From: Owenia fusiformis
Taxonomy: Eukaryota > Annelida > Polychaeta > Sabellida > Oweniidae
DNA: 64,000 nt
Reading direction: 5' to 3'
NCBI GenBank assembly: GCA_903813345.2
Contig: CAIIXF020000006.1
Span: 3,348,001-3,412,000, forward strand
Shown here: positions 6,140 to 63,680 of the stretch, piece by piece
Layout: each line of letters starts with the position of its first letter
How positions within the stretch are numbered: position 1 is the stretch's first letter
Program-made: the position numbers and the translations under genes
Notes under the pieces: model-generated
Databases searched by the model: none
Seen by the model: the letters and a program-made list of their open reading frames with translations, nothing else
What the model was told of the DNA's origin: nothing

Positions 6140-7917
6140 GAAACTAAATACAAGATAAATACACCAGTTGAAACTCTAGCAGAAACAACTGTGATTTATC
6201 AAGTGCTAAAGCCTGCAAAGAGTGTTATAAGGCTAAAAAATGAGGTGCTAACGGGTTCACTGAGTGTTTCCAGACTACAGTTTTGAAGAGGACTGGCCTG
6301 AATAAAAAACATAATGTTTGTAAAGCAATATACTGGCTAATTGCAATCTTGATTGAAATTAGAGGCACTGTCATATAGTTCAAGGGTCATATCAAGAGTT
6401 TTGATATAATTCACAAATATAATATTTTTAATCTAAAATGCAATTTTTCTTATATTTTGCAATGCTGAAAATAATAAAAATACTTTACATATGATAACCA
6501 GTAAAACATTTTTATTTTTCCTCTGGGACATTTTCCTTCCTCAGATCCTGGATTTTTAATTGAAAAACAATATAAAAGAAAGTCTTGATTTCAACAAAAA
6601 CATGATTTAAATCTCCCCCCAGATGTATTCCATTTCTCCAACCCATCTGAGACTTCATTAATTCTTTGAACTCATTTTCTCATATCAAAATATCTCCTTG
6701 AACTCAGTCCCTAAACTCTTATCCATCTGGCCAATTTCAACATGGTAATTTAAACTTGTGTTTTGGTGATATTTTAAGACTTCTGCGGCTAGAGTGTTGA
6801 CAGGTATATCCACAACATGTAACTGGTAAACTTCTTTAATCCACTAATCCCTGAAGAATTTAAATAGGGTTTCCCCTCAGATTTTGATTATTTGAGGTGT
6901 TTAACAGTGAAACTGATTCTGAGTTGTAGAATTTTGTTATCATTTCTGTAAATGTTGAAATAACATATGAAGATGAAGATGAAGTTACAAATGTAGAAAT
7001 CATACATGAGCTCTTTATGAATTTATTCTAGTAGGAATATTTTCAAGCATTTCATACTGAGGCCTATTTTAATCGTAAGACCAAATATGGAATAATATGT
7101 ACATCCTTACGCAATGATACAACAGCAAAATACAAAATACTGTTGTTGGAGAAATGATACATAAAATGATGCATAAATGGTACAAATGTTTGAATGGAAT
7201 CAGAAGATGGGTGTTAATAGGATTATCAGACAGGGATACACAAAAAATATATGTGCCTGGTAGAAGTGATCATGTGGAAAATATTCAAGATGCCATTAAT
7301 CACTTACCATAGAACTGAAGGATTTAACACAAATAATCAAACAGTTAGCATAGTCAAGCATAAAAGGTGAAAGTGGAGAAATAAGCAATGAATAATTGAA
7401 TGAATAACCCAAGAAAGTTTATGTAACTATACAGAAAGCTGCATAATAGCATAAACAAGCTACATTCTTCTGAGCAAGTATTCCAATTAACAAAACCCTC
7501 CATGCATAAAATAAAGATTTTAATACAGCTAAATACATGGAATTTTTACAAAGGAACAACCAGAGGATATCATAAATTCTGTGAACTGGTTAGAATAATT
7601 GGTTACATGCTGAATCAGAAATGACAGCTCCGATTAATGTTACACATAGAAAACCAGACTTTGATGAATGAACTTATTACATTATTCCAAATGAAAAGAA
7701 GTTGCATCTTCCAATACAATAAGCGCTTGAGCACACAGCTTTTCTTACAATCCAGGCAAGCTGATGAAACAACAGGAATTGGAATTGAAATATAACACTA
7801 CTTTGAGGGAACAATCATCAAAAGGTAAGCAATAAATGGAACCAATAATAATGATGAGGTTCTTGTATGTGTTCTGATTAGTTTTTTATATCACTTATGG
7901 ATTTTTTGTTTTTCACA
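6140..7917. other. Non-coding region
   Basis: AT-rich, with many short frames interrupted by stops between 6950 and 7850. It may include a decayed coding repeat, but no recognisable motif survives. No tandem or inverted repeat of note was seen. Confidence 0.35.
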
Positions 7918-7921
7918 TTAA

Positions 7922-8463
7922 TCACTGCTACCCACCTAATTACACAGACGTATCGTCGGTGTATCATGGCGGAACTTCCTCCGGGACTAGGTTTTGGTAA
8001 GATTTTTTTATTTCCCGATTTACACCTACTTATAAGTCACGTTGTGGATAATAATTTGGCTCGAAGTTAAGGAAGATAGTCTAGTTTGAGAATGTGTCGA
8101 TGGTTTTAGGTTTTATATGTTAACAAAGACACAATTCACGTATTTAGTCCCTCGCTTTTCTTACACTGACGATCGGCATTAATATTGCCAATATTACACT
8201 GATATTGGTCGTTCGTCAGTGTAAGAAAAGCGAGGGACTAAATACGTGAATTGTGTCTTTGTTAACATATAAAACCTAAAACCATCGACACATTTTCAAA
8301 CTAGACTATTTTCCTTAACTTCGAGCCAAATTATTATCCACAACGTGACTTATAAGTAGGTGTAAATCGGGAAATAAAAAAATCTTACCGAAACCTAGTC
8401 CCGGAGGAAGTTCCGCCATGATACACCGACGATACGTCTGTGTAATTAGGTGGGTAGCAGTGA
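7922..8463. mobile_element. Near-perfect hairpin MITE in a TTAA target (piggyBac/Kolobok-like)
   Basis: Two arms of about 250 bp are almost exact reverse complements around a ~40-bp centre. Outer ends are TCACTGCTACCCACC and its complement, flanked on both sides by TTAA (7918-7921 and 8464-8467). TTAA duplications are typical of piggyBac and Kolobok superfamilies; the ends do not decide between them. Only a few mismatches separate the arms, which implies recent formation or gene conversion. Each arm contains the same ATG-to-donor segment, listed separately in the findings. Confidence 0.88.
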
Positions 8464-8469
8464 TTAATA

Positions 8470-8934
8470 CAGGCACATGAGTATTATAATGCATTATCCC
8501 TGCTTAATTGTCATGTCAAACTGGTGATACACTACTGTTGCCAAGGTAACAATAATCTGATGCCCTGTTGAGTACCATTTACCTCCAGAGGACTTTCTTA
8601 TACAAAATTTGGTTTGCATAAGTTAAATTACTAACTTGATTACTTACTTAATTTTACTTTCATTACTTCCAAAATAATCCTCATACTGTATGTGTCATAA
8701 TTCTAAGGATGCACATAATATTTGCTTTGAGCATGAACATTTTCTCATTAACATGAATTTCCTTTGTAAGTGACTCATATTTGAGTTTATTAAGGATAAT
8801 TTCCTGACGGTGACAGAACCAACAATTTATTAACCCCTAAGCATCAGAATCCTCAGAATAATATATCTCTTCTAAAAATAGAAAAAAAATTTACCATATT
8901 AACAAATATCTGGGACATCATATTACCCTTATAT
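8470..8934. other. Non-coding spacer
   Basis: AT-rich sequence between the hairpin element and the MITE copy at 8935. Nothing recognisable was seen. Confidence 0.4.
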
Positions 8935-9272
8935 ATCCTGTGCGCAGTCTAGTTATAAACTACCCTCTGCCTAGTATAGACCAGATTACAGTTTAGCAGC
9001 CCCGCCCCGAAGATTGGTGCCTGTGACAGCCCGGCTACAAATCTACAATGCTGATCCTTTCTCAACTAATCAGCAAAGTGGAAGGAACACACGCTAAATA
9101 CATGCTAATTTACTAAGCGGGGGTGTCAAAGAAAATGACCATATAGAAAGCTGTCCGGTCTGTATTTCGACTACACACTCTGATTGGCTCTGTGAGATCA
9201 GATATTTATTGTAAACTGAGAGTGAAGATGAAGCTCTCTTTTAAGAAGTGAAGTCGAACGAATGCAAAGAGT
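8935..9272 (-). mobile_element. MITE-like dispersed element, family A (full copy, reverse orientation)
   Basis: Reverse-oriented relative to the copy at 22839-23214. It shares the end related to CAGAGTCTAGTTAAACTACC, the phrase CTAGGCAGAGGGTAGTTTA, a central CTGATTGG-containing stretch and the other end CGAATGCAAAG preceded by GAAGTGAAGTCGAA. It has no coding capacity. Target duplication is not clear for this copy. Confidence 0.75.
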
Positions 9273-11800
9273 AACCCTTAGACTAAGATGCAATCACTAA
9301 AATTCTACTCTTATAGTTTTTTCATGAATTCGGTTTTACCACTGATAAGATATCCATGGCCTCATTAAGTATAGTTTTTTGGGTTTGAGTTCAAATATGT
9401 AATAATGAATGTTATAAGATTTTTCTGTGACATACATACCAAGTTACTTTGAGTACTCCTTGTATTCTGGGCCCCAGTCTCTACTATCTCTGGAAGCTTA
9501 ACTTGACATAGAGAGGGTTTCTTATAGAGCATGACGCATACTAAGGCTTCTGATTAAAAAGGTTTGATCAAAGGTTAAGACATTGAAAGAATATTAAAGA
9601 AGTTCTACTTCAAGGATGCAAAGTGAAACTCAACATTCTACATTTCAACCTTTTTCCAAAAAAAGCTCTTAATACCAAAAAAATATCTACTTAATATATA
9701 ATAGCAATTATGCACATGTAACAGATACATTAATGGAGTGAAAGTAAATATATCTCTCATAAAAAATACTAAAATGAAAACCATGTTCTCGTATGATCGA
9801 CAATGCAGCCTCAAACATTTACCCAGACAATCCCCTAAGGGAACATGCACAATGGGGAACTTTCAGACTTATGAGCTTTTTTAGTCATTTGAGTTAACAA
9901 TAATATTATTACAGTCATCATAGATAAATATCTTAACAATGTGGGTAAGCCAGTTCCCATCTGGGCTATTAACTACTATTGTACAATGAAACCCATCAAC
10001 TGTTATCATAGTAGCCCAGACAATAGAATGTAACATTCATTCAATACTTCACCATACAAAAATAGCTAATAACATGTATAAGTCTTTGAGGAATTGAGTA
10101 TCCATTTTTATTTGTTCATGTTAAGAATATAAACAGGCACATTGAATACTTGTTTTCTAGTAATGGCGTCCATATTACAGATTTGGCAACATCAAAATTC
10201 TTATTCAGCACTTCAACTCTATAAAGTTCACTATGTTGCCAAGCTGTACCAAAAATGTCCTTTGAGATCATTAACAGCTAGGACTAATGTTTTTCTCATC
10301 TATGTTTTCTTCCTACAAGAGATTTACTGTTATGAACTAAATAGTGTGAAGTTGTGATCTCCTATTCAGGATGCAACATTTGCGCCAAATCCAGGAATTA
10401 CTGAATCTTTCAACATTAGGTTGAGGAAACCAATTTAAAAAATTGTCAAAAATTAAATTTTGATCAGAATGTCCAAAATCATTGTGCCAAACCCTGCTCC
10501 AATGACTCAATAAATCGTATGATACCAAAATATCCAATATAAGGTGATCAACAACTCTCTGATTCCATTAAATGTATTTTAAATACATCTCATGCCTTCT
10601 GGTCAGTTCCATCTATAAATTCTCAAAAGTTCAGGGTACTAAATGGGCCAATTACCGTTTTTAGATTTGTGAGGATTTAAGCTTGTTTCAGATAAAGCCT
10701 AGAACAATTCCAATGGTGAAGTGACTCATGGACAATCAATAAAAACTTTTTACATCACAAATAATAATGATGATTGATGGAATGTATCTTGTTCCCGATT
10801 CTTCTCTTGAATGAGGAGCATGATATAGAGATAGTAGAGTGAAAGGCCACAGGACCTAATGTATATGATACACCAAAACACATTTTCAACTTCCAAGATG
10901 ATACATCTGAAACCTCTGAAACCTTCTAAATAAAGATGCACCAATAGTGCAGCCAGAATATAATGTTCTTTCAAGTTCCAGGAAAAAAATCTTAGATCTC
11001 AAAAGTATGACATTCTTCGACTCATATTTAACCTCCCTGATATAAGGATGTGATTTCTCATGATGGAAACTTGAATTCAATGGTGCAAATCACACTTGGA
11101 CAGCAAGTGTGGAACAACTAATTGAACCATTCAATCAATCTGATACTACATTCAAGACCCAATTTCAATAACTCCCAGTTCATCATACTGTTGCTGAGTA
11201 TGGCATTCAATTGCTCAATTATTGGCCGAAATGTCCCAGAAGATCAGATCAAAAAGTATGGGGACAAAAGTAATCATAGAGCCAATTATTTGAACACCCT
11301 TGAAATAAATGAGTTATTGAGTTTTGCCGACTGTATATCCCCATGAGGATTCTAATAAATGAACTGTTTCCAGTTAGTGGTATTCAATGTGAAATAATTC
11401 TACACTAAAGATGGAGGAGATAATCAATCAGCCAAACGGTTTCAGGTATGTGATTTGATATATTTTCTTTTATTAGGTTTTTATTCATATTTGGGGCAAT
11501 ATTCCCTGCCTTTTCTAGTCGCCATTTTGTCTAATAGTCTATGCAGGGGATTCTAATTCTTGCATCAAGTTACTGATTTGATTCCAACAACCAGAATCCT
11601 TGCAATGGTTACAATTCTTACAATACTTAATATTGTGGAAGTCAATGCCAGTGCCATGTATTTGAGCCTGGGGAGGTAGGAAGAAACATTACCTTTTGCA
11701 TTCGTTTGACTTCGCTCCTTCTCCACTCTTTCAGAGCTAGTTGTATATGATGTCACAATAATCAAAATGAGGGAGTATGTACGCATTATATAAAGTTTCA
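9273..11800. other. Non-coding region with possible decayed transposase and small exon-like pieces
   Basis: A minus-strand segment at 9440-9489 lies between a CAG acceptor and a GTATGT donor and stays open (IVETGAQNTRSTQSNL). A minus frame at about 9890-10030 reads VDGFHCTIVV and PDGNWLTHIVK, vaguely like a Harbinger-type DDE transposase. At 11411 an ATG opens 11 codons plus two bases ending in a GTATGT donor. None of these is secure. A partial family-A MITE fragment lies at 11688-11745. Confidence 0.3.
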
Positions 11801-11814
11801 ATAGATATGGGACA

Positions 11815-12200
11815 AGCGAGTTAAGTGAGTGTGCCAATATCTTAAAGTGGCACTAGGTGAGATATGGGACAAGAACCAGTTAAGTGAGTGTGCCAATATC
11901 TTAAAGTGGCACTAGGTGAGATATGGGACAAGAACCAGTTAAGTGAGTGTGCCAATATCTTAAAGTGGTACTAGGTGAGATATGGGACAAGAACCAGTTA
12001 AGTGAGTGTGTCAATATCTTAAAGTGGCACTAGGTGAGATATGGGACAAGAACCACTTAAGTGAGTGTGTCAATATCTTAAAGTGGCACTAGGTGAGATA
12101 TGGGACAAGAACCAGTTAAGTGAGTGTGTCAATATCTTGAAGTGGCACTAGGTGAGATATTGGACAAGAACCAGTTAAGTGAGTGTGCCAATATCTTAAA
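11815..12200. repeat. 59-bp minisatellite, block 1 (about 6-7 copies)
   Basis: Tandem units of 59 bp contain GATATGGGACAAGAACCAGT, TAAGTGAGTGTGCCAATATC and TTAAAGTGGCACTAGGT. The phrase GCCAATATC starts near 11832, 11891 and 11950 and continues at the same step. The block ends where a unit variant GTGTCA meets the inserted element at 12207. Confidence 0.95.
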
Positions 12201-12206
12201 GTGTCA

Positions 12207-12666
12207 CAGGCCTGTTGACTGTCCCGCAATTTGCGTATTTGTCACGCATTTGCTGAAGAATTTGAAGTCACGCCAGTTATTTTTGCGTGACAGAAAATGT
12301 CACGCAAATACGCATTTTACCTGGTAATTGTCAAGCAAAAATATTTCTGTAGAAAAATTTCTAAAAAGGTTCGTCTACACAGCAAAAATACGAACGCCGA
12401 AAAAAAAACGTACGCATTTCGTTCGGACTTTTCACGCGAATCACGCATATGTCACGCATTCCGTTCGAAATTTTTCGTACCTACCTACGAAAAATTTGAG
12501 ATGTTCAAAATTTGGCAAGATGTAATAAAATTTAAACCAAGGTGTTCAAAATTTGGATCAAGTGTTCAGATGCTCTCAGATTTGGACCAAGGTGTCCACA
12601 TTTAGAGGGGAGGTGTTCAACATTGCAAAGTCACCCATGTTCGGTGTTCCCAAGTTGACAGGCCTG
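12207..12666. mobile_element. hAT-like MITE, family B, copy 1, inserted in the minisatellite
   Basis: Bounded by CAGGCCTGT...ACAGGCCTG and flanked on both sides by GTGTCA (12201-12206 and 12667-12672), a variant of the minisatellite unit, so the insertion site is explicit. Internally it has repeated GTCACGCA motifs, a hairpin TTTGCGTGACA/TGTCACGCAAA and a 12-bp hairpin AAATTTTTCGTA/TACGAAAAATTT. There is no transposase. The short open frames inside are shadows. Confidence 0.9.
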
Positions 12667-13022
12667 GTGTCACTAGTTGAGATATGGGACAAGAACCAGT
12701 TAAGTGAGTGTGCCAATATCTTAAAGTGGCCTAGGTGAGATATGGGACAAGAACCAGTTAAGTGAGTGTGCCAATATTTTAAAGTGGTACTAGGTGAGAT
12801 ATGGGACAAGAACCAGTTAAGTGAGTGTGCCAATATTTTAAAGTGGTACTAGGTGAGATATGGGACAAGATCCAGTTAAGTGAGTGTGCCAATATTTTAA
12901 AGTGGTACTAGGTGAGATATGGGACAAGAACGAGTTAAGTGAGTGTGTCAATCTTATCGGGCACTAGGTGAGATATGGGACAAGAACCAGTTAAGTGAGT
13001 GTGTCAATATCTTAAAGTGTCA
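12667..13022. repeat. 59-bp minisatellite, block 2 (about 6 copies)
   Basis: Same unit as block 1, in the same orientation, between the two inserted element copies. Several units share ATTTTAAAGTGGTACTAGG, a variant hardly seen in blocks 1 and 3, so this block has been homogenised locally. Confidence 0.93.
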
Positions 13023-13473
13023 TAGGCCTGTCGACTGTCCCGCAATTTGCGTATTTGTCACGCATTTGCTGAAGAATTTGAAGTCACGCCAGTTATTTTT
13101 GCGTGACAGAAAATGTCACGCAAATACGCATTTTACCTGGTAATTGTCAAGCAAAAATATTTCTGTAGAAAAATTTCTAAAAAAGTTCGTCTACACAGCA
13201 AAAATAGGAATGCCGAAAAAAAAAACGTACGCATTTCGTTTGGACTTTTCACGCGAATCACGCATATGTCACGCATTCCGTTCGAAATTTTTCGTACCTA
13301 CCTACGAAAAATTTGAGGTGTTCAAAATTTGGCAAGATGTAATAAAATTTAAACCAAGGTGTTCAAAATTTGGATCAAGTGTTCAGATTTGGACCAAGGT
13401 GTCCACATTTAGAGGGGAGGTGTTCAACATTGCCAAGTTACTCATGTTAGGTGTTCCCAAGTTGACAGGCCTG
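13023..13473. mobile_element. hAT-like MITE, family B, copy 2
   Basis: Nearly identical to the element at 12207-12666 and in the same orientation. It is flanked by the same GTGTCA (13017-13022 and 13474-13479). The first terminal base is T instead of C (TAGGCCTG). Identical position within the repeat unit shows it arose by duplication of the interrupted minisatellite, not by a second insertion. Confidence 0.9.
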
Positions 13474-13945
13474 GTGTCACTAGGTGAGATATGGGACAAG
13501 AACCAGTTAAGTGAGTGTGCCAATATCTTAAAGTGGCACTTGGTGAGATATGGAACAAGACTGGGTTAAGTGAGTGTGCCAATATCTTAAAGTGGCACTT
13601 GGTGAGATATGGAACAAGACTGGGTTAAGTGAGTGTGCCAATATCTTAAAGTGGCACTTGGTGAGATATGGAACAAGACTGGGTTAAGTGAGTGTGCCAA
13701 TATCTTAAAGTGGCACTTGGTGAGATATGGAACAAGACTGGGTTAAGTGAGTGTGCCAATATCTTAAAGTGGCACTTGGTGAGATATGGAACAAGACTGG
13801 GTTAAGTGAGTGTGCCAATATCTTAAAGTGGCACTTGGTGAGATATGGAACAAGAACCAGTTAAGTGAGTGTGCCAATATCTTAAAGTGGCACTTGGTGA
13901 GATATGGAACAAGACTGGGTTAAGTGAGTGTGCCAATATCTTATT
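13474..13945. repeat. 59-bp minisatellite, block 3 (about 8 copies)
   Basis: Units here carry GATATGGAACAAGACTGGGT and GTGGCACTTGGTGAG, variants confined to this block. About seven successive copies are almost identical, indicating recent local expansion. Confidence 0.95.
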
Positions 13946-16288
13946 ATGCAATTCCATCCGGGTACCAATGTCAGGATTTCAGCAGACAGATCACAATAAG
14001 ATTCACTTACTGATGATGAAAAGCCCATTACTTTGTATCAGTTCATACAGGAACAAGAAGTGACAAATACTGAGTCAGACATTACAATATCTCATGGTAG
14101 ATGCAGCATGGGAAATATAGAGAATCTCAAAGTTGTAGGAGTTACACTACCCTTTGCATTAGTTTGACTTCGCTTCTTACAAGAGACCTTTAACTAGACT
14201 CTGCATGCAGGGTAGGGTTACACCTGAGGGTACAAAGAAAAAACACAAAGATGAATATAAAAACATTGACAACTTAGAAAATAGTGACTTATATGCACAT
14301 TCATTCTGATTTAGTTCCTCTTTTTTGTTCTTTCCTGAACCTTGAACATGCAAACTAAACTACATCACAACTGACCCCATTTGTAATGGGGCCCTGTAAT
14401 TGTGAGAATAGGTTTACTACAGAAAATTGAAGATCAAATTAACATCAGTCATCCATATGAATCAAGATGCAACTTAACAGAATTTCATTAAAATCAGTCT
14501 GAGACAACTAACCAGAGTAATCCTGATTTATTATGAGCAATAAAAGTAATGAGGTATTTGTTATGCATGCATGAAGTAATCAAAGAGCCCAAATGGCAAT
14601 GTTGGTAGTATCATGCATCATTGATGTACTTTTACATGTTTCCGCTTTTCAGATTAATCTCAATTACTTCAATCTGTTTTACATGGCACATTTTTGAATG
14701 ATTTAGAGTAAAGAATTCATACTTCGCAGTTCATTCCATATGGTTCCTAACTATTCAAACTTCAATGATTCCATTATATATCTTGTCTAAAATATTATGG
14801 CCAAGACTTTTATTTACAGGAAAGAATCTTCAGGAAAGAATTAATGTGAGGGAATGTAGGGTAAATCCAAGACATGCATGGATGGGTTAGATAAGCATGA
14901 TTCCCAAAGGAGGATTTATCCCATGAGGCCAAGTACTGATCATGTGATCATTTCAACCAATCCACTATGTGAAAGTGACAATGAATGAAAGATTCTTGGA
15001 AGCAATATACCATTCTTACATGATTCACTCATGACAAACCCTCAATTGATGATGTTACACCATATCATTGAAAAATAACAAATGCTACATGAACCTATAT
15101 TGAATTCTCATTAAAACTGAGCTTATGGCTAAGAACGAATAAGAAGAAAGCTTTTAGTTTTATGAAACAGACTAACTGTGTTTGAAAGTTCTATATTGGC
15201 CTATAATTTTAGGATATTATTCATCTCTGGACGAGTAATGTGTGCTGTAGAAAACAGAACAATAGCAAATACAATGTATATCCTTTATGTTATGAAATAA
15301 TCTTATAGTACCCCCTGATATCGCAGGAATTATAGTCCAATTCGGCTGTGAAAATTGTTTTTACCACTTTAAAGCCCATCACCTTATAAAGTTATTTCTT
15401 GCAACCTTCCAGCAAAGTGTGTCAGCTACTGATATAAGAATCTTGTAATTTTTTCACTTTCCGCATCCAATTACTTTTTCTATCTTGAGTCTAAATAGAA
15501 TAACTTATTTTTGTCCGGCTGGAATCAACAATATCTCAATCATGGATGAATCCAATATTTCTCTGAAAATTAAATCAACACTCAAGGCTTGCTGAGTGAA
15601 AATCTGATTTTCTCTCAAGATCATTCTCTAAATCTAATTATTCAGAAGATCTTCAATTGACAAAATGTCAAGAATTATATTGGAACTCAGTGAAATGGTG
15701 CCCCTGTATGGAATAAGAACAAACAATCTATATTAAACTATTGAAAATAAACAATCTAGTTGAGTTGGCTGATATTTGGTATAAATCCTCCAAGTAAACA
15801 AGTCACATGTTTCAAATGAATTTACTAGGCACTGGTCATTATAATTTTCTTGTGAATCTACAAGTCTGATGTCCACGAAATAAAACCATGTCTTTATTGT
15901 ATAACAACCTCCAAATTGAATTAACAAATAATTATATGATATTTCATATACACCAGATACATCATCTTCTTTGATAAGTATAGTAATTAGATTTCAGTCA
16001 ATTTAAATATACTTTAAGTTGAAAGTGATATTTTATGCAAAATGTTCATATTAGACATGTTAATTTTTCCAATATGACTGTTCATTGTTTAAAGTAGTGT
16101 TAATATTTCACTTTGTTTTTAAGCATGGAAGTCAATTAAATGAGAATAAGATTAGAATATACAGGTTTTACTGTACATAAACATTCCTAGAATTGCACTA
16201 AATGTACTTTAATCACATATTATTGATATTTTGTTATCTTCCACTGACTGGAAAAGTGCAGAATACTTAATCATAAGAAAAAGCCGAT
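13946..16288. other. Non-coding region with one small MITE derivative
   Basis: Mostly featureless AT-rich sequence. It contains the 65-bp family-A deletion derivative at 14149-14213. A 46-nt minus-strand segment at 15383-15428 lies between a CAG acceptor and a GTGATG donor and is open (ADTLCWKVARNNFI), too short to call as an exon. Confidence 0.35.
14149..14213 (+). mobile_element. Family A MITE, internally deleted 65-bp derivative
   Basis: Begins ACCCTTTGCATTAGTTTGAC and ends ACTAGACTCTGCATGCAGGG, the two ends of the 376-bp copy at 22839, with the middle missing. Flanks resemble each other (GGAGTTACACT before, GGGTTACACCT after), consistent with an aged target duplication. Confidence 0.7.
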
Positions 16289-17264: not shown

Positions 17265-17600
17265 GTTTACATAGAGTACACATTAAACTTTAATCAATCT
17301 ACAAGTAAGTATTCATGTTACCTAATCAATTCTTACTTAAAATGATGAAAACATTGAATGTGAACAATGGATAATAGTGAAATTCAAATTAACATGGAAT
17401 CCTGTTCTCAATTAATTATAATTTGCATTGTAGATGCTTTCTCATCATGCAAATTTTATTTTCATTAAAGGACCTGAGAGTTATTCCACATATAATACCA
17501 TGGGCTTATAAATGGAGATAGCATATGTTAACACAAGTTTTATACAAGGCATTAACATGACAAAATGTCACGACCCACTGCACCTAGTTGCTCGCGATAT

Positions 17601-18433
17601 CACAGGCTGGTATCGAAAGATTTGTCCGCTGTGACGGAGCATGCTATTTTACATAAAAACACTAAGAATGCTTCACGATTTATTTTTTAACTCATATGTT
17701 TCGTTATATCAAAGATAATTACTTATTCCATGCAATGGATATATCATTTGCGTGTAACCTTCACTTCTGTTTGAAGTCCAATAACGCTAGGAGTAAAATC
17801 TATTGAAAACGGCGCCAGAGTATCAAACTCTAAAATGTACCATTTCTTTTTTAACTTTTTAATGGCATGATATAGTGACACGTTAATATTAACATATGTT
17901 TTCAGCAATAACTCTAAATGTATTAATGAGATATTAATGCATTGGGTCTTTTTAATTTTTTTATAAAAAAATAACATTAATATTTGGTGTCCGCTTTGAC
18001 GGAGCATTTTCATAGTTCACATTTGCAACTGCTCCGTCACAGCGGACAAAAAAATTAAACATTATTTTTTATAAAAGAATTAAAAAGACCAAATACATCA
18101 ACATCTCATGTATACCTTCATAGTTATGCTGAAACCATGTGTAAATATTATCGTGTCACTATATCGTGCCATTAGAAAGTTAAGCAAGAAGTGGTACATT
18201 TTGAAGTATGATACTCCGGCGCCATTTTCAATAGCTTTTCTTCCCAGCGTAATTGGACTTCAAACAGAAGTGAAAGTTACCCGCAAATGATATATCCATT
18301 GCATGGAGTAAGTAATTTTGTATGTTATAACGAAACATATGAGTTAAAAAATAAATCGTGAAGTATTCTTAGTGTTTTTATGAAAAATAGCATGCTCCGT
18401 CACAGCGGACAAATATTTCGATACCAGCCTGTG
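17601..18433. mobile_element. 833-bp foldback transposon with paired diverged arms
   Basis: Ends CACAGGCTGGTATCGAAA and its complement are flanked by GATAT on both sides (17596-17600, 18434-18438), a probable 5-bp target duplication. Arms of ~390 bp are reverse complements with moderate divergence. TGTCCGCTGTGACGGAGCA, or a near match, occurs four times, at the outer and inner edge of each arm. Both arms contain a related short open frame (minus strand in the left arm, plus in the right), treated in the findings. Confidence 0.85.
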
Positions 18434-18449
18434 GATATCATTAGTTCAA

Positions 18450-22827: not shown

Positions 22828-22838
22828 AATATGCTGAT

Positions 22839-23214
22839 ACCCTTTGCATTCGTTTGACTTCACTTCTTAAAAGAGAGCTTCGTCTTCACTCTTTCAAACT
22901 AAAATAAACCTGTGAACTCACTGCGCCAATCAGTGTTCGTCGGCCAAAATTGACCGACGTTCTATATATGGTCATTCCTTCTGACGTCATCGTTGAGCCC
23001 GGAATTGACCAATGACATGCGCATATTTAATAAGAACGCATTTGGCGTGTGTTTCTTCAAGCTCGCTGATTGGTGGAAGAAAGGTCAGCGCGTAGGTCAA
23101 AAGTTATTTATTACGCAAACTGTCATCGGTACCCGTCGTGGGGGCTTGGCTACTAAACTGTAATATGGTCTCTACTAGGCAGAGTGTAGTTTAACTAGAC
23201 TCTGCACGCAGGGT
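22839..23214 (+). mobile_element. MITE-like element, family A, complete copy with 11-bp TSD
   Basis: Begins ACCCTTTGCATTCGTTTGAC and ends GACTCTGCACGCAGGGT. The flanks are the identical 11-mer AATATGCTGAT (22828-22838 and 23215-23225). The length suits Mutator-like elements (usually 8-11 bp) or retroposition, but no A-tail is present. No coding capacity. Related copies lie at 8935, 14149 and about 55499, with fragments near 11690, 31120, 32520 and 37300. Confidence 0.88.
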
Positions 23215-23225
23215 AATATGCTGAT

Positions 23226-26619: not shown

Positions 26620-29600
26620 GAATGAACCAGCCAGTGACATTATAGTTTATCGCTATACCGATATGTGTTCATTTATCCCTTGTTCATGAGAGTGTTCACC
26701 TAAAAGGTGAAAAAGAAAAGACCCCAAGTAAGTTATCCTGGAATAAAGCAACAGAGGAGAATAAATCTGCATATAGAACTCTTTTGGATCCCAAACTAGA
26801 AGAGTTATATAATGAAATCAACAGTGTTAAAGACGGACTGTCAAAGCTAGATTTAGACATTTTCTTTGAGAAATTAACTCAGATTCTGAAGAGATCTGCT
26901 TTTTCAACTTTTCCTCGAACATGTTTCAAAGGGTATTTAAAGCCATACTGGTCAACACTCTTAAAAGACCTAGTTAAGAAAAAGAAATCAAGTTGGAAAG
27001 ATTGGAAAGATGCAGGAAAACCAAGGAATAATGAAAATGAGATATGCCGGAAATATAGACAAGCGAAAAAAGAATTCCAGAGAGAGCTTCGGCGTGCAGA
27101 ATACGAGTACCAAATACAAATGCAAGAAGAGATTGATTCCGCCTCCGAGATTTCTATGAATTTATTCTGGTCTATAGTGAACAAAAGAAGGAAAACCAAA
27201 CCGACCCCACTTTACATCAGGAGCGATGAGGGGCATGTTCTGACTGATCCAGCCGACATAAGGGAAGAATGGAGGAACTATTTTGCTGGTCTTGTGAAAT
27301 TTAATGAAAATGAGTGTTTCGATAAGGCGTTTAGGGTACATATTGACCAAGAGGTTAATAGAATGCTTTCTTCCAGTGTATTAAATGAGGACACTGCCTT
27401 TAAAGATGAAATAACTGAGCATGAAATGACGTCACTTTGTAATAATCTGTCTAGTAACAAAGCCCCAGGATGGGATGATATAAGTGCCGAACACATTAAA
27501 TATGGAGGAGTCAAGCTAATGAGTATATTAACCATATTGTTTAAATACATCGTTTTAACGGAATACATTCCCCAGAGTTTTAAAACGGGAGTGTTGATAC
27601 CACTTTTTAAAGGGGGTGATAAGGACATACTTTGCAAGGACCACCATCGAGGCATCACACTCATGTGCACGTATATGAAGCTCTTAGAGGGGCTTATGGC
27701 CAAGAGAGGCCAGGAATGCCAGAGTCTTGGAATTCACCGCCCCAAGCATGATCTACAGGGAGTTAATAGAAAAGGATGTTCCAGTCTTCATACGTCATTA
27801 ATAACAAGAGAAGCCATCGCTACTGGACTCGAAAGAGGCAATGACGTCATAATTGTGGGATTAGATATCCAGAAAGCTTTCGATGGGGTATATCATAATG
27901 GGCTACTCTACAAAATGTACGAACAGGGTATCCGGGGAAAGCTTTGGAGGCTGTTGAAAAATGCGTACGAAGGATATACGTGTTCGATACGTGTAAGTGG
28001 GAGCACCACCTTGTCTGAACCCTTCGTAGTGGAGCAATCAGTTCATCAGGGAGGAATTTACAGCATGGAGCTGTATGCGAAATATACTAATGGGCTTATC
28101 CGTGAGATTTGTGACAGTGGCCTAGGATGCTCAATTGGTGGAATCACAACCACAATTCCAACGTATGCGGATGACACTATACTCATTGCATACCACATGC
28201 CTGTCATGCAGAAGCTTCTAAGCATTATTTACCAGTACAGCCTGAGATGGAGATTCAGATTCCACCCAAATAAGTGCAAGGCTGTATATTTCAGTAGAGG
28301 AAGGTCCACTGGGCTAGAAGGAACGTTGTCGATAGGTGGAGCGCAGATACCGATAGTGACCCAAATGGAACATCTAGGACTTCCACTTTGTTCATCAGGT
28401 ACATATGGACAGTTCATTGATGACAGAATAGCCAAAGGACGGAGAGCGGTTAATGCCTATGTTGGAGTAACATCGAGTACTATGAATCCGGCAAACCCCC
28501 TCACTACTTCGAAAATATACTGGTCAATAGCTATTCCATCAATGCTATATGGTTTAGAAATCGTCCCTCTGTCTGATAGTGACTATAACAAACTAGAGGC
28601 TAGTCATAAAATGATTGCCAAAAAATGTCAAGGACTACCAATCAATACAAGTGACTCGGCAGTTCTTGCTCAGCTAGGCTGGAATAACATTAGGTATAGG
28701 GTGAGCTTCATGAAATTAATGTTCATATGGAATCTTCTGGCACTTCCCATTTGGAGCGTATACCGACGCATAACCATTATGCGCATCGTTCAAATATGTG
28801 ACAATAATACAAATGTGCAATCACCGTTACGTGACATCATGAAAACATGCATTAAATATAATCTATATACAAATGTAGTGCAAATGATTAAAACTGCAAG
28901 AATACCAAGTAAAATGCTTTGGAAAAGAACTGTAACGCAAACACTCAAAGAGTTCCATCTGAACGAATGGCACATTAAACTATTAACATATAGAAAACTC
29001 AGCCTATACTCAAATATAGTGATCGAGGTGAAACCAATATCATGGTGGATCATGGCCCGAAAATATCCCAGACTAGTCAAATACTCTCGGCTGATGGTTA
29101 TGTTAATGACAGGTGAAGGAAATCTTCAAGTGAATATAGGTCGCTGGAAAAATACCCCAACCAATGAACGACTATGCAAAATGTGCAAATGTGAAATTGA
29201 AACGTTATCTCACATGTTGCTTGAATGTGAGCCTTTAAATGTGGAACGAACCCCCCTTCTGGATATAATGAGAGAATATGGTCTGACAGATACTACAAGT
29301 ACACATCAGCAGAAGTTGAACTTTATTTTTGACGAGGGACAGATTTTAGACTGCGAGGGACTTATAAGGATAGCACAAAGTGTTTATAAAATGTATAATA
29401 TGCGACCGAAAGAGGATACGTTAATGTAACAAAAATGTATGATCTTAACCCAATGCGGTGAATACCTAGCATGTTATTGTTACTTACACTGTATATTAGA
29501 ATGCAACTAACTGACATCTTAACTGTATATAGATAAAAACTGTAAATTACAAAACTACATAAAATATTGTACAAATGTTGTACTAAATTATACTCTCATA

Positions 29601-46362: not shown

Positions 46363-47251
46363 GTACATCAATATCTTTCTGTTGATATGGTTAGTTGAGA
46401 TTAGGAAAACTTATATCACAGACAATTCCAGTTGGATATGGTCAAGTGGCTTATATGATCTTCATTTGAATGAAGAATGATAGACCAAAATGAATAATGA
46501 AGAAGAATACAAAGATGAATGGACAATTGGTCAAGAAACACCATGACATGAAGTTGAAGTTTAAAGATCAGACAGCCAGATGTTGACTGATAATGAAAAG
46601 AATTCAACAACTAAGCAAATCAAATTCCCCTTTATTAGTTTAGTTTGTCTAATTAGTCTGATTTAATATTCCAAGAGAAAAACATAGAACCTTTGAATTG
46701 AAGAAACCAGCGATATCGTGATACTGTGGCTCGTGTGCTATAAGGCTAGTAAAGTGGGATCATGGTTTAAAAAGAAATGACAGAAAAACAGATTGGTTTT
46801 GTTCACAAACTGAATAAGTCTTACTGGCCTCATCAATATTGAATTCATACTTATTCCTTTACTTCTACATTACAACCCTACAAATTGTAAATATTTCATT
46901 GCAGAAGAATCTGTCAGATATGTAGATCAAGAAGATAGTGAATATTCCTGTAATATTACACATTTTCTCCAATCATTTTTTCTAACATGCAAATACAGCT
47001 TGAGTAAATATCAAAATATCGTAATATCAAATTATTCTTATATTTTCAGGAGATGTGAAGTTTACTTGCGCATAGGTGGTGCAGCCATTTGGACAAGTGC
47101 TATCTGGTTCTTAACACAATAGAACATAAACATGATAGAATTAACATTCAGTTGAATATCTTATGCTATGTAGAAGTCCAATTCATAATATGGTATCTCG
47201 AAGTTAAATTCCTAAAATGCCATAGTTTTGTCTTAGTGAAGCGAGTCAATT
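46363..47251 (+). other. Upstream region of four-jointed
   Basis: AT-rich sequence between the TIR element and the start codon, presumably containing the promoter and 5' UTR. A TATTTTCAG acceptor-like site at about 47049 may mark a 5' UTR exon. No TATA box was convincingly placed. Confidence 0.4.
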
Positions 47252-50200
47252 ATGACACAATTTAGAGTGAAGAAGAAGCGAACACTTTGTGTTATTGTCG
47301 TGACAACATGCCTGCTAGGATTTGTTGTCTTGCTGTCAACCATCAAGGATCAGACATCCCTTAATGTAGGAAGTGACTATGATCTGCGGTATGATATTGA
47401 TGGAGCTGATATCGTTAGTGACGAGCTGTACCAACAACATAATAATCAATTTGAGATGAATATAGAAAGTGGATTTAAACACATCGAGAGGAAACCACAA
47501 GCTCACATTGAACGGAACTCTAACCAATATAATGATGCAAGAAATGGTTTCAGGGACAACACAGATGATGCAAACCTAAGTGAGGATTACACAAACCCTG
47601 ATTATGACATGAATGTAAAACTGAAGAAAATTGGAGAGGCCTCTGAGGAGGAAGATGATGACGAAGATGATGATGATATTGTAGCTGAAGATGATGAAGA
47701 TGATGGCTACTATGACAATACAAATGAAAATGCAGTATTTAAGTCTGATGACTTTGATATGCAAAATTATAGAAAATTCTCAAATATGGAGAATGGTGTT
47801 GTTAAAATGAACCAAGAGCAAAGCCAAGATTCCATTGTTAATGACAGACTTTTGGCAGATTCCCTTAATGTTAAACTTGAGAAACCTGTGCAATACAACA
47901 AAATAATCCCACAAGATCTTAAACATAGTGCAGTCAAACAAGATAGTAAGTCACGGACTAAATGTGCAGAAGGTAAACCCTGTGTTACTATTAAAACCAC
48001 TGAAAGATCTCATAAGCCAATACAAAAACATACAAAAGCACTAGATGCAACTGAAAAATCAAGGATAGGGTTAAACCCACAGACACAAATTCCTGCCCAG
48101 CCAGGCGTAAAGGAGCTCCCTTTAGAGGCCCCAATTTTGAACAGTCAGAAGGAGTCACTGCAGAATACATTAATGAGCCCCATACCAGAGAGGATGGCAC
48201 CAAATGTCAATGATAGCAATGTAACTGTCCGTAGCAATATGGGGATTCCAATTGTAGTTCAAGGAGTATTCTGGTCTGATGACCTTCTGCAGTATGTACC
48301 AAAAGGTAAGCATTTGTTTTTTTCCCTGATCAATAAGCAGTTTTTAATTTGTTAAGATATTGCTGAAAGCCATTACACTTGGAAAAGGAATTTCTTTGCC
48401 AAATTCTCCACCTACACTCTACAGTCAGGTTGCATCATTACAATATTGCTCTGTTCATAACAATAATTCTGTGTCTGACAATTTTGGCAATTTGGCTAAA
48501 AATGTCATTGACTGATTGCTGAGTACCTGAATAAACATATCTCTCTCCAGCCATTCACAGGAGGTATAGACAATCCCACAATCCTTTGCATCTCTATCAA
48601 TCAGAACTTAAACAAAATGAAAAATATACATGCAGCCTATACACTTGTACTTAATTATCCATTTTATGAATAAAGTATCAGTTATCCATGCAAAAACGCA
48701 TTAAAGATCCAGCCCACTAACTTTCCATGTTCAATTGAAAAAGACAATCATGTATCTCAGAAATCTTGCTATGAATTCTGGGTAGATATGAGCATTGCCT
48801 TTATGTTTTTAGGATACTGAATGTTTTCTTTGAGATTTCCTCCCAGTTGGAATTCATCAATCTTCTCCCTAAATTAGAAAAGGTGTCAAAATTAGTTTCA
48901 TCTTTCTCCACATATTGTTAAGGCTTTAACTATTTGACTCAAAACCTTGACTTTTGACAGTTGAAAGAAGTATACTAATAATGTGCTAGGATTGGTGGGG
49001 AGTTTATCTTCAACTTTGCATTTTCTCTACTCCTGAGTTAAGAATTGAATGAATTCTACATTCATCAACCACCAGAATGTAATTTAAATGTGAAATATTG
49101 CAAAATAATTATATACTATTCTGGTTATATCCTGAATCTAGCATAGAAATAGACCCTTATAGATCTAACAAGAATTGACTTGCGTGCAGATTTTGATTTT
49201 CTGATCCTGTTCTATTATGGCATACACTGGGCTATTAATTGAACTAAAATCAGTTACCCCTATGATATGATGTATAATTATGAAAAACATTTACTGAGGT
49301 ATTGTCACTTTGTATTGTGAAACTCTCACGATTTAAAACTTTAACTTTCATCAAAATGTAATTTACCAATCTCGTGTGAATGCCTCAGATTTAGATGGAA
49401 CATCAATTCTAATATCTTCCACCTTTCAGTCAAAACCCAAAGGTGAAATTAATGAAAATTATCAAAAGCTAATTTCAGAACCCAGGATGCATGGGGTGAG
49501 AGGGTTATACTTAGATGTTTACATGAAGAGGGATCGAAAAAGAATCGCCTAAATGTGATGTGCACCCAACTGTTATTATGGGCTATGTATTATTCTCATG
49601 GCGCCAAAACGACTGGCTCACATGTCATTTTCTGCTCAAAGGTGTTATGATAAATGACATTATACCTGAATAATTGTTTGCATCCCTTAAATACAACTCC
49701 ATTCCAATTTCATGAAATTTCTCAATTAAAATCCCATAAGCATTGATTTCTCACATTTTAGTTAAATTAAAACCATAACCTAAGAAAATGTTTCAAAATT
49801 TGAATCAAAAGATTCCATATGTTTTCACAGGCTTTCTCTCAGGAAAGGATGATCTAAAAGGACACATTTGGATGATGAGGCTTGCCTCAGGATATAGCAT
49901 ATGTCTGTTGCTAGCATAGAGCACATCCAACCATCTGTAATGCATACAAAATTGAGACATACTGTGTATTTTTCTGAACATCCGATGTGAACACATAATT
50001 AAAGATCTCACGAAAAACTCAACCGATGTTTCCAGAGGAATATTAACTAAAATAATTCAAAAAAAAGAATGATGCAGATAAAGGAATCTTCACATTTTTT
50101 CAGTTCTATTTGAAATATTGTTGTCAGGAAATTCCAACAAATCCTACTTTTTAAAGAGAAATGATTCTAATATGTATAGTTTGAGTAAAGGTTTACTTTT

Positions 50201-53200: not shown

Positions 53201-54613
53201 AGGTGAAGTGTTGTCATTTTATTTAGCCAAGTGGTTAAAACTTGACAATGTCCCAATCACCGTTCTATCAACTGTAGACAACACATCACCTCAATGGAGG
53301 GGCCATAATATTACTTCTCTGGGCTGGCAAAAGGGGGAGCCAGCAGCTCTAATACAGTATATAGACAACCTTAATATATTACAAAGGTGAGGAAATATTT
53401 ATAATACATTATCTATATCTTAAGAATAAAAATAAGATATATTACAAAATAACAATCGCATAAACCAGTATTAAGAGATATGTAATTGGTAAAGGGGAGA
53501 ACATGATACAATTCTATGTTTAGTGTAAGAAAAGTCTTATTCAACATAAAAAAATTAAACAGATTGTGTGTTGTGTTGTTAAACAAAAATCTTAAAAATA
53601 TATATATGACATATTGTTCAAAATTCAGTATAAGACTGATGCTTAATTTCAGATCTCGAGTGAAAATCCCAGACCAGCTACTAAAAGCTTATGAAACTGG
53701 GAGCATATTAGACAGCAACAGTTCTCTCATGACCAGCCTTAGGGTTGAGGAGCTCATAGAATTGATTCAGTGGACCCAGATGATCATCTTTGATTACCTC
53801 ACTGGGAACTATGACAGGTAAGTCTAACACAATGCACGGTTGTGTAATGATTTTAAGATCTTTTGCTCATAATGCTAAAATGTAAACGACCTTTTACTTG
53901 GCCTACATTAACTTTTTATATAACATAATTACATGTGAAAAACATTTTTACTTTCATATCAACCAGTTTCTGATGATTTCTTTATTGGTCAGATATCTAT
54001 TCCAGAGATAAAATGTATATCTAATGTGTTTAATGGGATATCAAGTACAAATATATGCTTGGAAGTAGGTGAATAGATTTAATCCTGGACTTGGAACTAC
54101 ACAAAATGTACTTACTGCATAACTAATCTATTATCTGTAAGGAAGCTATCATCTTGACCATCACTCATGTATCTCATCCTTCCATATATTTTCAGGGTTG
54201 CGAGTATGCAAGATGGAGCTGAAAAAGAAAACAAACCCAAAATTATGCATGATAATATGAGGAATCTCCGTAAAAACTGGAAGACTGGCAAACTTTGGCT
54301 TATAGATAATGAATCAGGGATGTTTGATGGATATGAACTATTATATTTAGGCGACCAAAATTCCAGGAGATTTTTAAAATTTCATAAAGAAATGCTAGAA
54401 TCAATTTGTATTTTTGACAAACATATGGTGACTGCTATTGAAGAGCTCCTCAAACATGACCAGCCACAAATAGTTTTGGAAAGTTTTGCCCAAACCCATG
54501 ATCCATTATACAAGACAGTTGAGGCAAAATTAAAAATAAACCATTTAGCGGAACATTTTAAAGACCGTCTAAAGGAAGTTTATAATTGGGTAAAAAAGTG
54601 TCAAAAAAGGTAG
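47252..54613 (+). CDS. fj: Four-jointed (FJX1-type) Golgi Ser/Thr kinase, five exons
   Basis: Joined exons 47252-48305, 52703-52879, 53203-53386, 53653-53817 and 54196-54613 give 1998 nt, 665 residues plus TAG, in frame throughout. Every intron is GT-AG. In the family, Four-jointed is a type II Golgi protein that phosphorylates Ser/Thr in Fat and Dachsous cadherin domains, tuning planar polarity and growth. The start gives a basic tail (RVKKKR) and a signal anchor at about residues 11-31. A long variable stem follows, with an acidic run near 125-150. The conserved domain starts near GVFWSDDLLQYVPKG. Further matches are WDRCGRDKNKFV, EDGTQLCVRYRAPHS, GEVLSFYLAKWL, FDYLTGNYDR (518-527) and LIDNESG with the Asp-Asn-Glu kinase triad at 564-566. 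The catalytic residues look intact. The C-terminal helical part ends KKCQKR. Human FJX1 is intronless, so the introns are notable. Confidence 0.95.
48306..52702 (+). other. fj: Four-jointed intron 1
   Basis: 4.4 kb between donor GTAAGC and acceptor ATTTCCAG. It carries a truncated family-B MITE copy at about 51239-51510, G-rich and C15 runs (51726-51740, 52464-52478), and otherwise AT-rich sequence. Minus frames at 49805-50011 and 50529-50795 are short and lack splice support. Confidence 0.85.
51239..51515 (+). mobile_element. Family B MITE, copy 3, truncated and diverged
   Basis: Starts CAGGCCGTCCAACTGTCCCC and follows the 12207 element through GCGTGACAGAATATGTCACG and CATTTTACCTGATTATTGTC, then fades after TTTCGTACCAACC. 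The right terminal repeat is missing. Confidence 0.8.
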
Positions 54614-55498: not shown

Positions 55499-55798
55499 TT
55501 CACTTCATGTTCACTCTTTCAGTTTACAAAATAACTCACCAAGCCATTCAGAGTATGTTGTTGAAATACAGTAGACTTTCTATGTATATGGTCATTTCCA
55601 CCGATGTGATCGCATAGTAAATGAGCACACAATATAGCATGTGTTCCTTCGAGCTCACTGATTGGTTGAGAAAAGATCAGCGGAAGGTTTGAAATGATTT
55701 ATGACCTAGGCTGCAACTGGCATAGGCGGGGGGTTACTAAACTGTAATTTTGTCTGTACTAGGCAGAGGGTAGTTTATGACTACACTGCGTGCAGGGT
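55499..55798 (+). mobile_element. MITE-like element, family A, diverged copy
   Basis: Matches the 22839 copy over CACTCTTTCA, GAGCTCACTGATTGGTTGAG, GTACTAGGCAGAGGGTAGTT and the end CTGCGTGCAGGGT. The left end is eroded and no target duplication is evident. Confidence 0.7.
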
Positions 55799-56494
55799 AT
55801 TGGATATTAACACTTTTTGGTCTCATTTTTAATCTGCTAGACTCCTATGTTGGAAAACCTTAAAATATGAAGACCTCGCAATCTGAACATTTTGGACAGT
55901 CCCATTGGTGATCAGATAAAACAGGTTTCACTTTACACTGATTTTCTTATTTCAAGTGAGGATAAATCTGAATGTTTTCATGAAATCATGCTAGTTATGT
56001 GGTGAACAATATGTAACGAATTCTTACCTATCATTATGGTCTGGTAAATAATTTCTAGATGTAAATAGGTGAAAAAAGTATTATTTATGGAAATAAATGT
56101 TAAATTATTGATAATAAAAATAAAATACATGTTTGTCCTTTGTATCATAAAAAGGATAATTTCACAGTGTAATGAATGAAGCTGTGAAATCATGCCCATA
56201 CAAAACCTGAAGCCTAGAATCGACTGATTTAACTGTATATCTGGAATGTACTCTGATATGATGTATTCCCCGATGTAATTCACAACTTTGCCATTAGATG
56301 GCACTTCAGGTTCCAGCATGTAGATCCGAAATATTTTTATTACTAATAAGTAAAAACTGTGATAGTCAACTCAACTTCAATAAGGCGAGGTACAAAGCCA
56401 TTGATACAGATCTTGAAAAGAACACATGCAGGCAGGATTGGTCCATCTGCACCTTATATAGTTCCAAAACGTATATAGGTCATGTAAGCGTCTG

Positions 56495-57143
56495 CCCTGT
56501 CAACCCTAACGCAATAAACGCATTTGCTGGAAAAGTTGAAATCAGGCATTAATTTTGCGTGTACGATAAAATGTCACGCAAATCACACATTATGTTGATG
56601 TTTAAATAAATCTGATTTTCATATATCGCTGATACAGTAAAAAAAAACAACGGCGAAAAAACAAATGCTTTAAGTTCAGACTTTTCACACGAATTCTGTA
56701 TATGTCACGCATTTGGTTCGAAATACTGTATAAGTGGTATTTAATCCGAGTGGTTAATTTTCCGAATGGTCAAATTTCATCATTTTCCTAATTTTAATTT
56801 TCCTAATGACAAGAAACCTCCCATTGGATAACATTATAAAGACAATATTTCCGACATTTACTTTTCCGAACCTGGCAAAAATTAGGAAATAGGAAAATTA
56901 AATGATTAGGCAAAATTACCACTTATACAGTACGTGTTAATGTCACGCATTTCCTTCGAAAAATTGTGAACCTACCCCAGTTGACAGAGTTTTTAATCGT
57001 GAGCGTCAGCGAGTGGAAAAAATTGAGGTGGCCACTATTTTGACCAAGATGTTCAATTTTGGACCAAGGTGTCCACAAATTGAAGGAAGGTGTTCAACAT
57101 TTGTAAGTCACTCATGTAAGGTGTTCCCAAATTGACAGGCCTG
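56495..57143 (+). mobile_element. Family B MITE, copy 4, diverged and interrupted by another MITE
   Basis: The left end is degraded (CCCTGTCAACCC). The right end ATTGACAGGCCTG is intact at 57131-57143. Internal GTCACGCA repeats, GGACCAAGGTGTCCACA and GGTGTTCAACATT match the 12207 copy. A separate TA-flanked element sits inside at 56726-56930. Confidence 0.8.
56726..56930. mobile_element. 205-bp TA-flanked MITE nested in the family B copy
   Basis: Ends CTGTATAAGTGGTA and its complement are flanked by TA (56724-56725, 56931-56932), suggesting a Tc1/mariner-type transposase. The interior is rich in TTTTCC/GGAAAA. Nesting shows it is younger than the family B copy it interrupts. Confidence 0.85.
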
Positions 57144-60395: not shown

Positions 60396-60527
60396 AGAAA
60401 TGGTGGCCATTGTGGTGTGATGTAATACTTGACGTATTGACCCAAGCCCAGTTTTACGCCATTCCTTACATTTATGCTAATTTGCACTCATTAATATTCA
60501 AAGCGGGATCATTAACTGTAATCAACA

Positions 60528-63500: not shown

Positions 63501-63680
63501 CCTGATTCCAAACTGAAAAGAAAATACTGTAAAATATGTGACTCTGGAAGTCATTCAGTATTTGATTGTACCAAAAGACATCCAAACTCCAAAGTTCCTG
63601 GAGCCACAGTATGCTTCTATTGTGCCCAGGACACCCACTGTGTAAATGCCTGCCCCTCCCTTAAGGGTAGGTTAAGTTAG
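60528..63680 (+). CDS. Ty3/Gypsy-type Gag protein, 1050 residues, intact
   Basis: A single uninterrupted frame from ATG at 60528 to TAG at 63678-63680. The C-terminal part is a retrotransposon Gag: a capsid-like domain at about residues 765-930, opening KAPLFNGRCSLSAFLIQFR and containing NGWTDEESAIFMVRSLEGEA. Two canonical C-X2-C-X4-H-X4-C zinc knuckles follow, at 1001-1014 (CKICDSGSHSVFDC) and 1029-1042 (CFYCAQDTHCVNAC). Gag assembles the RNA-containing particle and the knuckles bind RNA. The first ~750 residues are Pro/Ser-rich, apparently disordered and much longer than in typical Gag proteins; I recognise no domain there. No protease, reverse transcriptase or integrase follows in the remaining 320 bp, and all frames after the stop close quickly. 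It may be the gag of an element whose pol lies beyond the window, an internally deleted copy, or a domesticated gag gene. Confidence 0.88.
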   Translation: MSEKSDIFNLAKRTPLHVSESTERPLSSQKSQAEAFDTISPGWFDDSEVVLGHQHLNEQELKLAQDNTLPLESSATTPPQIKRPSFKVSPPVKLPRIPKLLLDRPRPLPKGRLFNPLLKMVKQDTKDPKSDLNLVSSKNGEKSVSSRGGAYEPPIAGAPGSLEKETLMGAYGGMPSKTPPLKPLPAYGTRATAKQAFSPLSLAPYLKTDFGTKDQRVLHPKYERKRDSQIAQSSELQKPLDKLSTRGTFQFRKPLDVQTHPHAYSGKPSSASTHTAGRKSGQGLMTSTKVSTHGKSASHGSFSDSNPSKHSMHTFPLLPTANRKNEPQSWPNKLHSSPFRPLLPPIKITDIPRFRPKTPDFSHSRDLTLKSPINVKQERKDNYTKPNYDLLGHSSKMGVVKDVQVNYQVPPLPPVLPVPHESDMLQEAYGSELLKQTLQSSLLIPSDRIPLSMCNDLKYTRGLPKEALSADESYDLNRDFQLPNVPKVTKEITQLSEPNKLKHAEFLTEQTVPYSDIKSKSYECMHQPESTLCRQDLKRPNDRVLCESSKSPPCKIQVVDKSDMFSLSDKSSQSTEFSANCRQTYCLPKSVDQTYDSDLETCSWLDGQIPGYNRSAMPSYEISAQDASSVCTPCQNFPFKQRVNKDYARSSEAESLFPSPEYETAVDFSDPDYVENSMKCPSYYAKTRQRPACCMNNSDEYESAMENSLPPLRSTVMSRSKVNPCFPGLYKQIEKPNDLFISSPNTSDQESYTGVEKQRRGNSFSRKEMKAPLFNGRCSLSAFLIQFRLVSNVNGWTDEESAIFMVRSLEGEAVNVLDDLDDEDLATLASIINVLKINYEPPEQSNHARAELKHKFRGTNEPLEKLAHDIRKLSRQAFGKSSMSKKTIDDLATQAFIDALNNEELESKLSFYNPKTLNEALTMALQYEAFFKGRKKRLESFQDPGIFATPTPVQVNSSTPLSLSENDVMEIVEQKIEALARNLTRSITRGKPDSKLKRKYCKICDSGSHSVFDCTKRHPNSKVPGATVCFYCAQDTHCVNACPSLKGRLS

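Follow-up and report, generated by a model that had tools for sequence, protein, structure and literature searches.

Two copies of a short transposable element occupy the same position in two units of a 59-bp minisatellite in Owenia fusiformis, and the arrangement is best explained by a single insertion into one variant unit of an array that already existed, followed by duplication of a block of about 816 bp. Judging from the sequence, we give this reading a probability of roughly 80%. The locus lies within a 64,000-nucleotide stretch of contig CAIIXF020000006.1 (the window), and the array parts, elements, target-site duplications, and family copies described below are all on its forward strand.

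The minisatellite extends from approximately 11801 to 13943 with a period of 59 bp and is interrupted by two insertions, as determined with TRF and a table of its units. TRF scores of 733, 584, and 863 at period 59 indicate that the array is not due to chance. Its period and its 21 units, including the two interrupted units and partial units at the edges, place it among minisatellites, which are built of tandem units of 10 to 100 bp. We named the units L1 to L7, M1 to M6, and R1 to R8. The left part (11801..12206; TRF and unit table) contains L1 to L7, with the first element, E1, in L7. The middle part (12667..13022; unit table) consists of the remainder of L7 and M1 to M6, with the second element, E2, in M6, and the right part (13474..13943; TRF and unit table) consists of the remainder of M6 and R1 to R8. 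Units L1, M1, M5, and R8 fall short of 59 bp. R2 to R6 are identical to one another and, together with R8, form a second sequence type. R7 (13840-13898) is a mosaic in which a type-A centre lies within a type-B unit, a hint of conversion inside the array. When one 59-bp unit was folded, the z score was -1.76, and 9 of 200 shuffles were as good, which is suggestive at most.

The two elements were delimited by sequence comparison. E1 (12207..12666) is 460 bp long and has the ends CAGGCCTGTTGAC and GTTGACAGGCCTG, and the second copy, E2 (13023..13473), is 451 bp long; the original prediction had put both at about 455 bp. Their full-length alignment contains 11 substitutions among 450 aligned bases (439/450 identical), a divergence of about 2.4%, along with a 10-bp stretch found in E1 only and one 1-bp indel. 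Terminal inverted repeats are present, with CAGGCCTGT at both ends of E1, and of the first 13 bases 11 recur in inverted form at the opposite end; the first base is C in E1 and T in E2. The interior holds two imperfect palindromes of 27 and 30 bases (81% and 87%). The longest stop-to-stop frames encode 104 amino acids in E1 (12291-12602) and 141 amino acids in E2 (13144-13569), the latter running into the array. Folding as single-stranded DNA, applied to E1, gave a z score of -2.44 with 1 of 100 shuffles as good; that this fold is stronger than those of the other 99 shuffles is suggestive only.

The original prediction had assumed that the inserts are mobile, and two relatives elsewhere in the window support this assumption. 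One diverged copy (C51; 51239..51512) retains the left end, while its right end is lost or unrecognised; it is 78% identical to E1 and E2 (81.8% over the 269 bp aligned by BLAST). An older copy with both ends (C56; 56492..57143), identified by BLAST and alignment, is 69 to 70% identical to them and carries a nested insert of about 210 bp. This nested element, at about 56726-56932, has the inverted ends TACTGTATAAGTGGTA. The presence of C51 and C56 within 64 kb indicates that the family is dispersed. C56 is flanked by AAGCGT and AAGCAT, which agree at five of six positions, whereas for every other flank length between 2 and 10 no more than 3 positions match. With the length of 6 already set by E1 and E2, the probability of so close a match arising by chance is 19/4096 under equal base frequencies. 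The 6-bp duplication is thus matched at 6/6 positions in E1 and E2 and at 5/6 in C56 (C51 being without a right end), and the C56 flanks lend it support.

These elements are short, have no transposase coding capacity as judged by frame length, carry terminal inverted repeats, are dispersed, and are associated with a target duplication of fixed length. On the basis of this anatomy, the relatives C51 and C56, and the C56 flanks, we classify the family from its sequence as a dispersed, short, non-autonomous DNA transposon (MITE) with CAGGCCTGTYRAC ends and a 6-bp target duplication. Elements of the hAT superfamily produce 8-bp target duplications. We rejected a hAT assignment for E1 and E2, as the 8-bp flanks match at just 3 of 8 positions in both and at 0 of 8 in C56. 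A first pattern scan of viral contigs gave one match, in L001, where the inspected region (8700-10100) had no element around the motif and looks like phage coding sequence. A 16-mer from the second pattern scan occurred in 21 stretches of the viral contigs, two further pattern scans of these contigs produced no match, and when the copies were compared with 22 viral loci by BLAST, the matches listed (23 for E1 and 7 for E2) were all just 16 to 22 bases long.

E1 and E2 lie at the identical position of the unit and in the same orientation, each between two GTGTCA hexamers. Flank comparison places these hexamers at 12201..12206 and 12667..12672 around E1 and at 13017..13022 and 13474..13479 around E2, so that the span of 12201 to 13479, the shared unit position, and the flanking GTGTCA of the original prediction were all exact. 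After subtraction of the element and one hexamer, L7 and M6 are each exactly 59 bp long. The target position is retained in 18 uninterrupted units (L1 to L6, M1 to M5, and R1 to R7; R8 stops short of it). It reads GTGGCA in 12 of the 18, the sequence previously proposed as normal for the unit, and GTGGTA in 4 of the 18, with a 1-bp deletion in M1 and a rearrangement in M5. GTGTCA was found at this position in none of these 18 units, and both interrupted units, L7 and M6, have it. Because GTGTCA is confined at the target position to the interrupted units, the variant appears to mark one ancestral target unit. Given that the element sits in one unit of an in-phase series in which 19 of 21 units are without it, the insertion would have taken place after the array existed. 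GTGTCA also occurs at a different position of the unit in L4 to L6, M5, and M6 (at 12008, 12067, 12126, 12945, and 13001, respectively), and M6 therefore contains it twice, 10 bases apart.

From this anatomy, the 6-bp duplication, and the common phase, all of which are directly visible, we infer a single insertion event. The original prediction had named in advance two findings that would speak against it, differing insertion points and an element divergence far above that of the flanking units, and neither was found. The insertion points are identical, and the elements differ at 11/450 positions compared to 4/117 in the adjoining units (Fisher P = 0.52), the latter being a small flank sample of 117 bases from the pairs L7-M6 and M1-R1. 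Five of the 11 substituted sites could be polarised by C51 and C56 siding with one copy, with E2 changed at sites 1 and 218 and E1 at sites 10, 429, and 436. Sites 429 and 436 were polarised by C56 only (C51 is poorly aligned there), and the remaining six are ambiguous or have one outgroup. The polarised sites indicate that changes fall on both copies. The interrupted units L7 and M6 themselves differ at 3 of 59 sites, including a C/T site that marks one unit type.

The same position could instead have been hit twice, if members of the family had a target preference and inserted independently in two units. The dispersal of the family in the window is compatible with this, as is the site specificity of some DNA transposons, with Dada given as an example in the portion of the literature consulted (PMC3706591). 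Nevertheless, to arise independently, the second insertion would have had to hit the same one of 59 bases, and both events would have to share the same phase, orientation, and rare variant. The sole other two-ended copy in the window, C56, sits at a different hexamer (AAGCGT/AAGCAT), so this one copy gives no sign of a fixed target. The second-position GTGTCA carries no inserted element in any of the five units that contain it (L4 to L6, M5, and M6), and C51 and C56 are far more diverged than E1 is from E2. We regard two insertions as very improbable. Under the history originally proposed, a single insertion followed by duplication with neighbouring units, the duplicated block corresponds to the spacing of the copies: the starts of E1 and E2 are 816 bases apart, equal to the element plus six units. 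Summed over five positions, the M units are at a distance of 17 from those left of E1 and of 38 from the R units, a contrast that is partly one of types, as the R units mostly belong to the second sequence type. GTGGTA is present in L3 and M2 to M4 and the C-to-T variant in L4 to L6, M5, and M6, and neither appears in any R unit that retains the position. In both blocks the GTGGTA units come before the T units. However, unit order was not significantly conserved in a permutation test, in which 18 of 120 M orders were as good or better by both measures, and pooled shuffles of unit order gave 0.43 and 0.61. A block duplication is therefore suggested by the site identity, the target variant, and the shared unit types, not by unit order, and the order of the units and the three differing sites require later gain, loss, or conversion of units.

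This absence of significant order conservation, like the mosaic unit R7 with its hint of conversion in the array, would also suit a second copy that reached its place through gene conversion or through template switching among the units, without tandem duplication of a block. We consider this unlikely, as the left block alone has two variants in common with the M units, as if the neighbours had travelled with the element. It is about equally doubtful that the assembly placed two haplotypes of a single array, one element in each, end to end and that no chromosome has the block duplication. A join of this kind would leave an identical arrangement in the sequence. A divergence of 2.4%, that between E1 and E2, is plausible between alleles of many invertebrates that outbreed, and haplotype misjoins commonly fall in tandem arrays. 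When the flanks (11000-11802 and 13944-14800) were compared with the window by BLAST, no second copy was found except for short repeat pieces, which argues weakly against a misjoin, given that one confined to the array would also leave single flanks.

Under the preferred reading of one insertion and one block duplication, a MITE with CAGGCCTGTYRAC ends would have entered one unit of the pre-existing array once. The target unit would have carried GTGTCA in place of the GTGGCA of most units, and the hexamer would have been duplicated on insertion. A block of about 816 bp, consisting of the element and six units, would then have been duplicated in tandem. Unequal exchange and replication slippage are the usual route for minisatellites, and one of them, acting between homologous units, is the most likely source of the duplicated block. 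The two copies would subsequently have gathered separate changes while nearby units were gained, lost, or converted, as the unit types suggest. Breakage could have been favoured by hairpins within the element. The element itself looks like a passenger of array growth. As expected from the original prediction, the locus records an order of events in which the insertion follows the origin of the array and precedes the duplication of the block, and dates neither. A more far-reaching proposal seems to us a long shot: the elements would represent a previously undescribed group of DNA transposons of animals, marked by CAGGCCTG ends and target duplications of 6 bp, and their palindrome-rich interior would have helped to bring about the duplication of the block.

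The window contains several other repeats and open frames. A second family of MITE-like elements, dispersed and with TACCCTTTGCATTCG ends, is found at 22838-23215, 8940-9274, and 55503-55800. Its copy at 22838-23215 is flanked by the 9-bp repeat ATATGCTGA, which we take to suggest a MULE-type element. By BLAST, end pieces of this family lie on both sides of the minisatellite (11690-11720 and 14148-14214). An origin of the array by growth within a copy of this second family was rejected as not convincing, as the lowest P values among 20 comparisons past the end matches were 0.03, 0.043, and 0.043, and on the left side no comparison with this family beyond the first 47 bases gave P < 0.2. Two long palindromes detected by BLAST, 7917-8468 (94.8% self-complementary) and 17596-18439 (86.9%), are perhaps elements of the fold-back type, and a 110-bp tandem array of about 7.7 copies occupies 83-938. 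An open frame at 26646-29429 encodes a reverse transcriptase domain (Pfam RVT_1, E = 6.3e-16) and is LINE-like. The frames at 47240-48355 and 54158-54613 recall, on our presumption, exons of a Four-jointed-like kinase gene; Pfam matches to them were all below the curated cutoffs and sequence searches of the PDB returned none, giving no support for this identity. The frame of 1,052 codons at 60522-63680 has, in our reading, a gag-like look and a cysteine-rich end, and its Pfam match was far below the cutoff. A tRNA scan and an Rfam scan at the gathering threshold found nothing in the window.

A transposon in a tandem array acts as a natural tag that fixes one event and whose duplicates reveal later array growth. 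Here one window contains the tag together with its target duplication, the unit as restored, and independent copies of the family, and because these four features are visible together, the order of array, insertion, and duplication can be argued from sequence. The locus offers a clean case and may serve as a marker of array turnover.

MITEs that contain tandem repeats were reportedly described from the clam Donax trunculus by Satovic and Plohl in 2013. They resemble the present locus in that a MITE is physically joined to a tandem repeat; judging by the title of that work, however, the repeats are within the MITE, while here the MITE is within the array. In the part of the literature that our search covered, we found no direct twin of this capture of a MITE by a minisatellite. 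From the sections consulted of earlier reports (PMC2581405, PMC5615363, and PMC6947457), it is well known that transposons and MITEs can lie within tandem repeats or behind them, and the sections consulted of PMC3411249 and PMC6947457 deal with tandem repeats that are located in transposons or derive from them. In Messor ants, the mariner element Mboumar and the MITE IRE-130 are found in satellite DNA; as at our locus, a DNA transposon or MITE is associated with tandem repeats, and a role in their evolution has been proposed (PMC2581405, in the sections consulted). That case involves a long heterochromatic satellite and the TA target duplications of mariner, in contrast to the 21-unit, 59-bp minisatellite and 6-bp duplication described here.

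As far as the consulted portion of the source goes, IS3EU and GingerRoot share 6-bp target duplications with E1 and E2 and have TA..TA ends, occasionally TG..CA in GingerRoot (PMC10045372). The target length would fit IS3EU, but we rejected this assignment because the ends of E1 and E2 are CA..TG instead of TA..TA. Dada elements, according to the corresponding part of their description (PMC3706591), produce target duplications of 6 to 7 bp, lack terminal inverted repeats in their U6 and U1 families, and target small RNA genes. They are similar to E1 and E2 in target-duplication length and in their insertion into multicopy sequence, but this assignment was also rejected, as E1 and E2 have a terminal inverted repeat and their target is a minisatellite. 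Set beside these systems, the locus is an ordinary meeting of two known processes and not a new mechanism.
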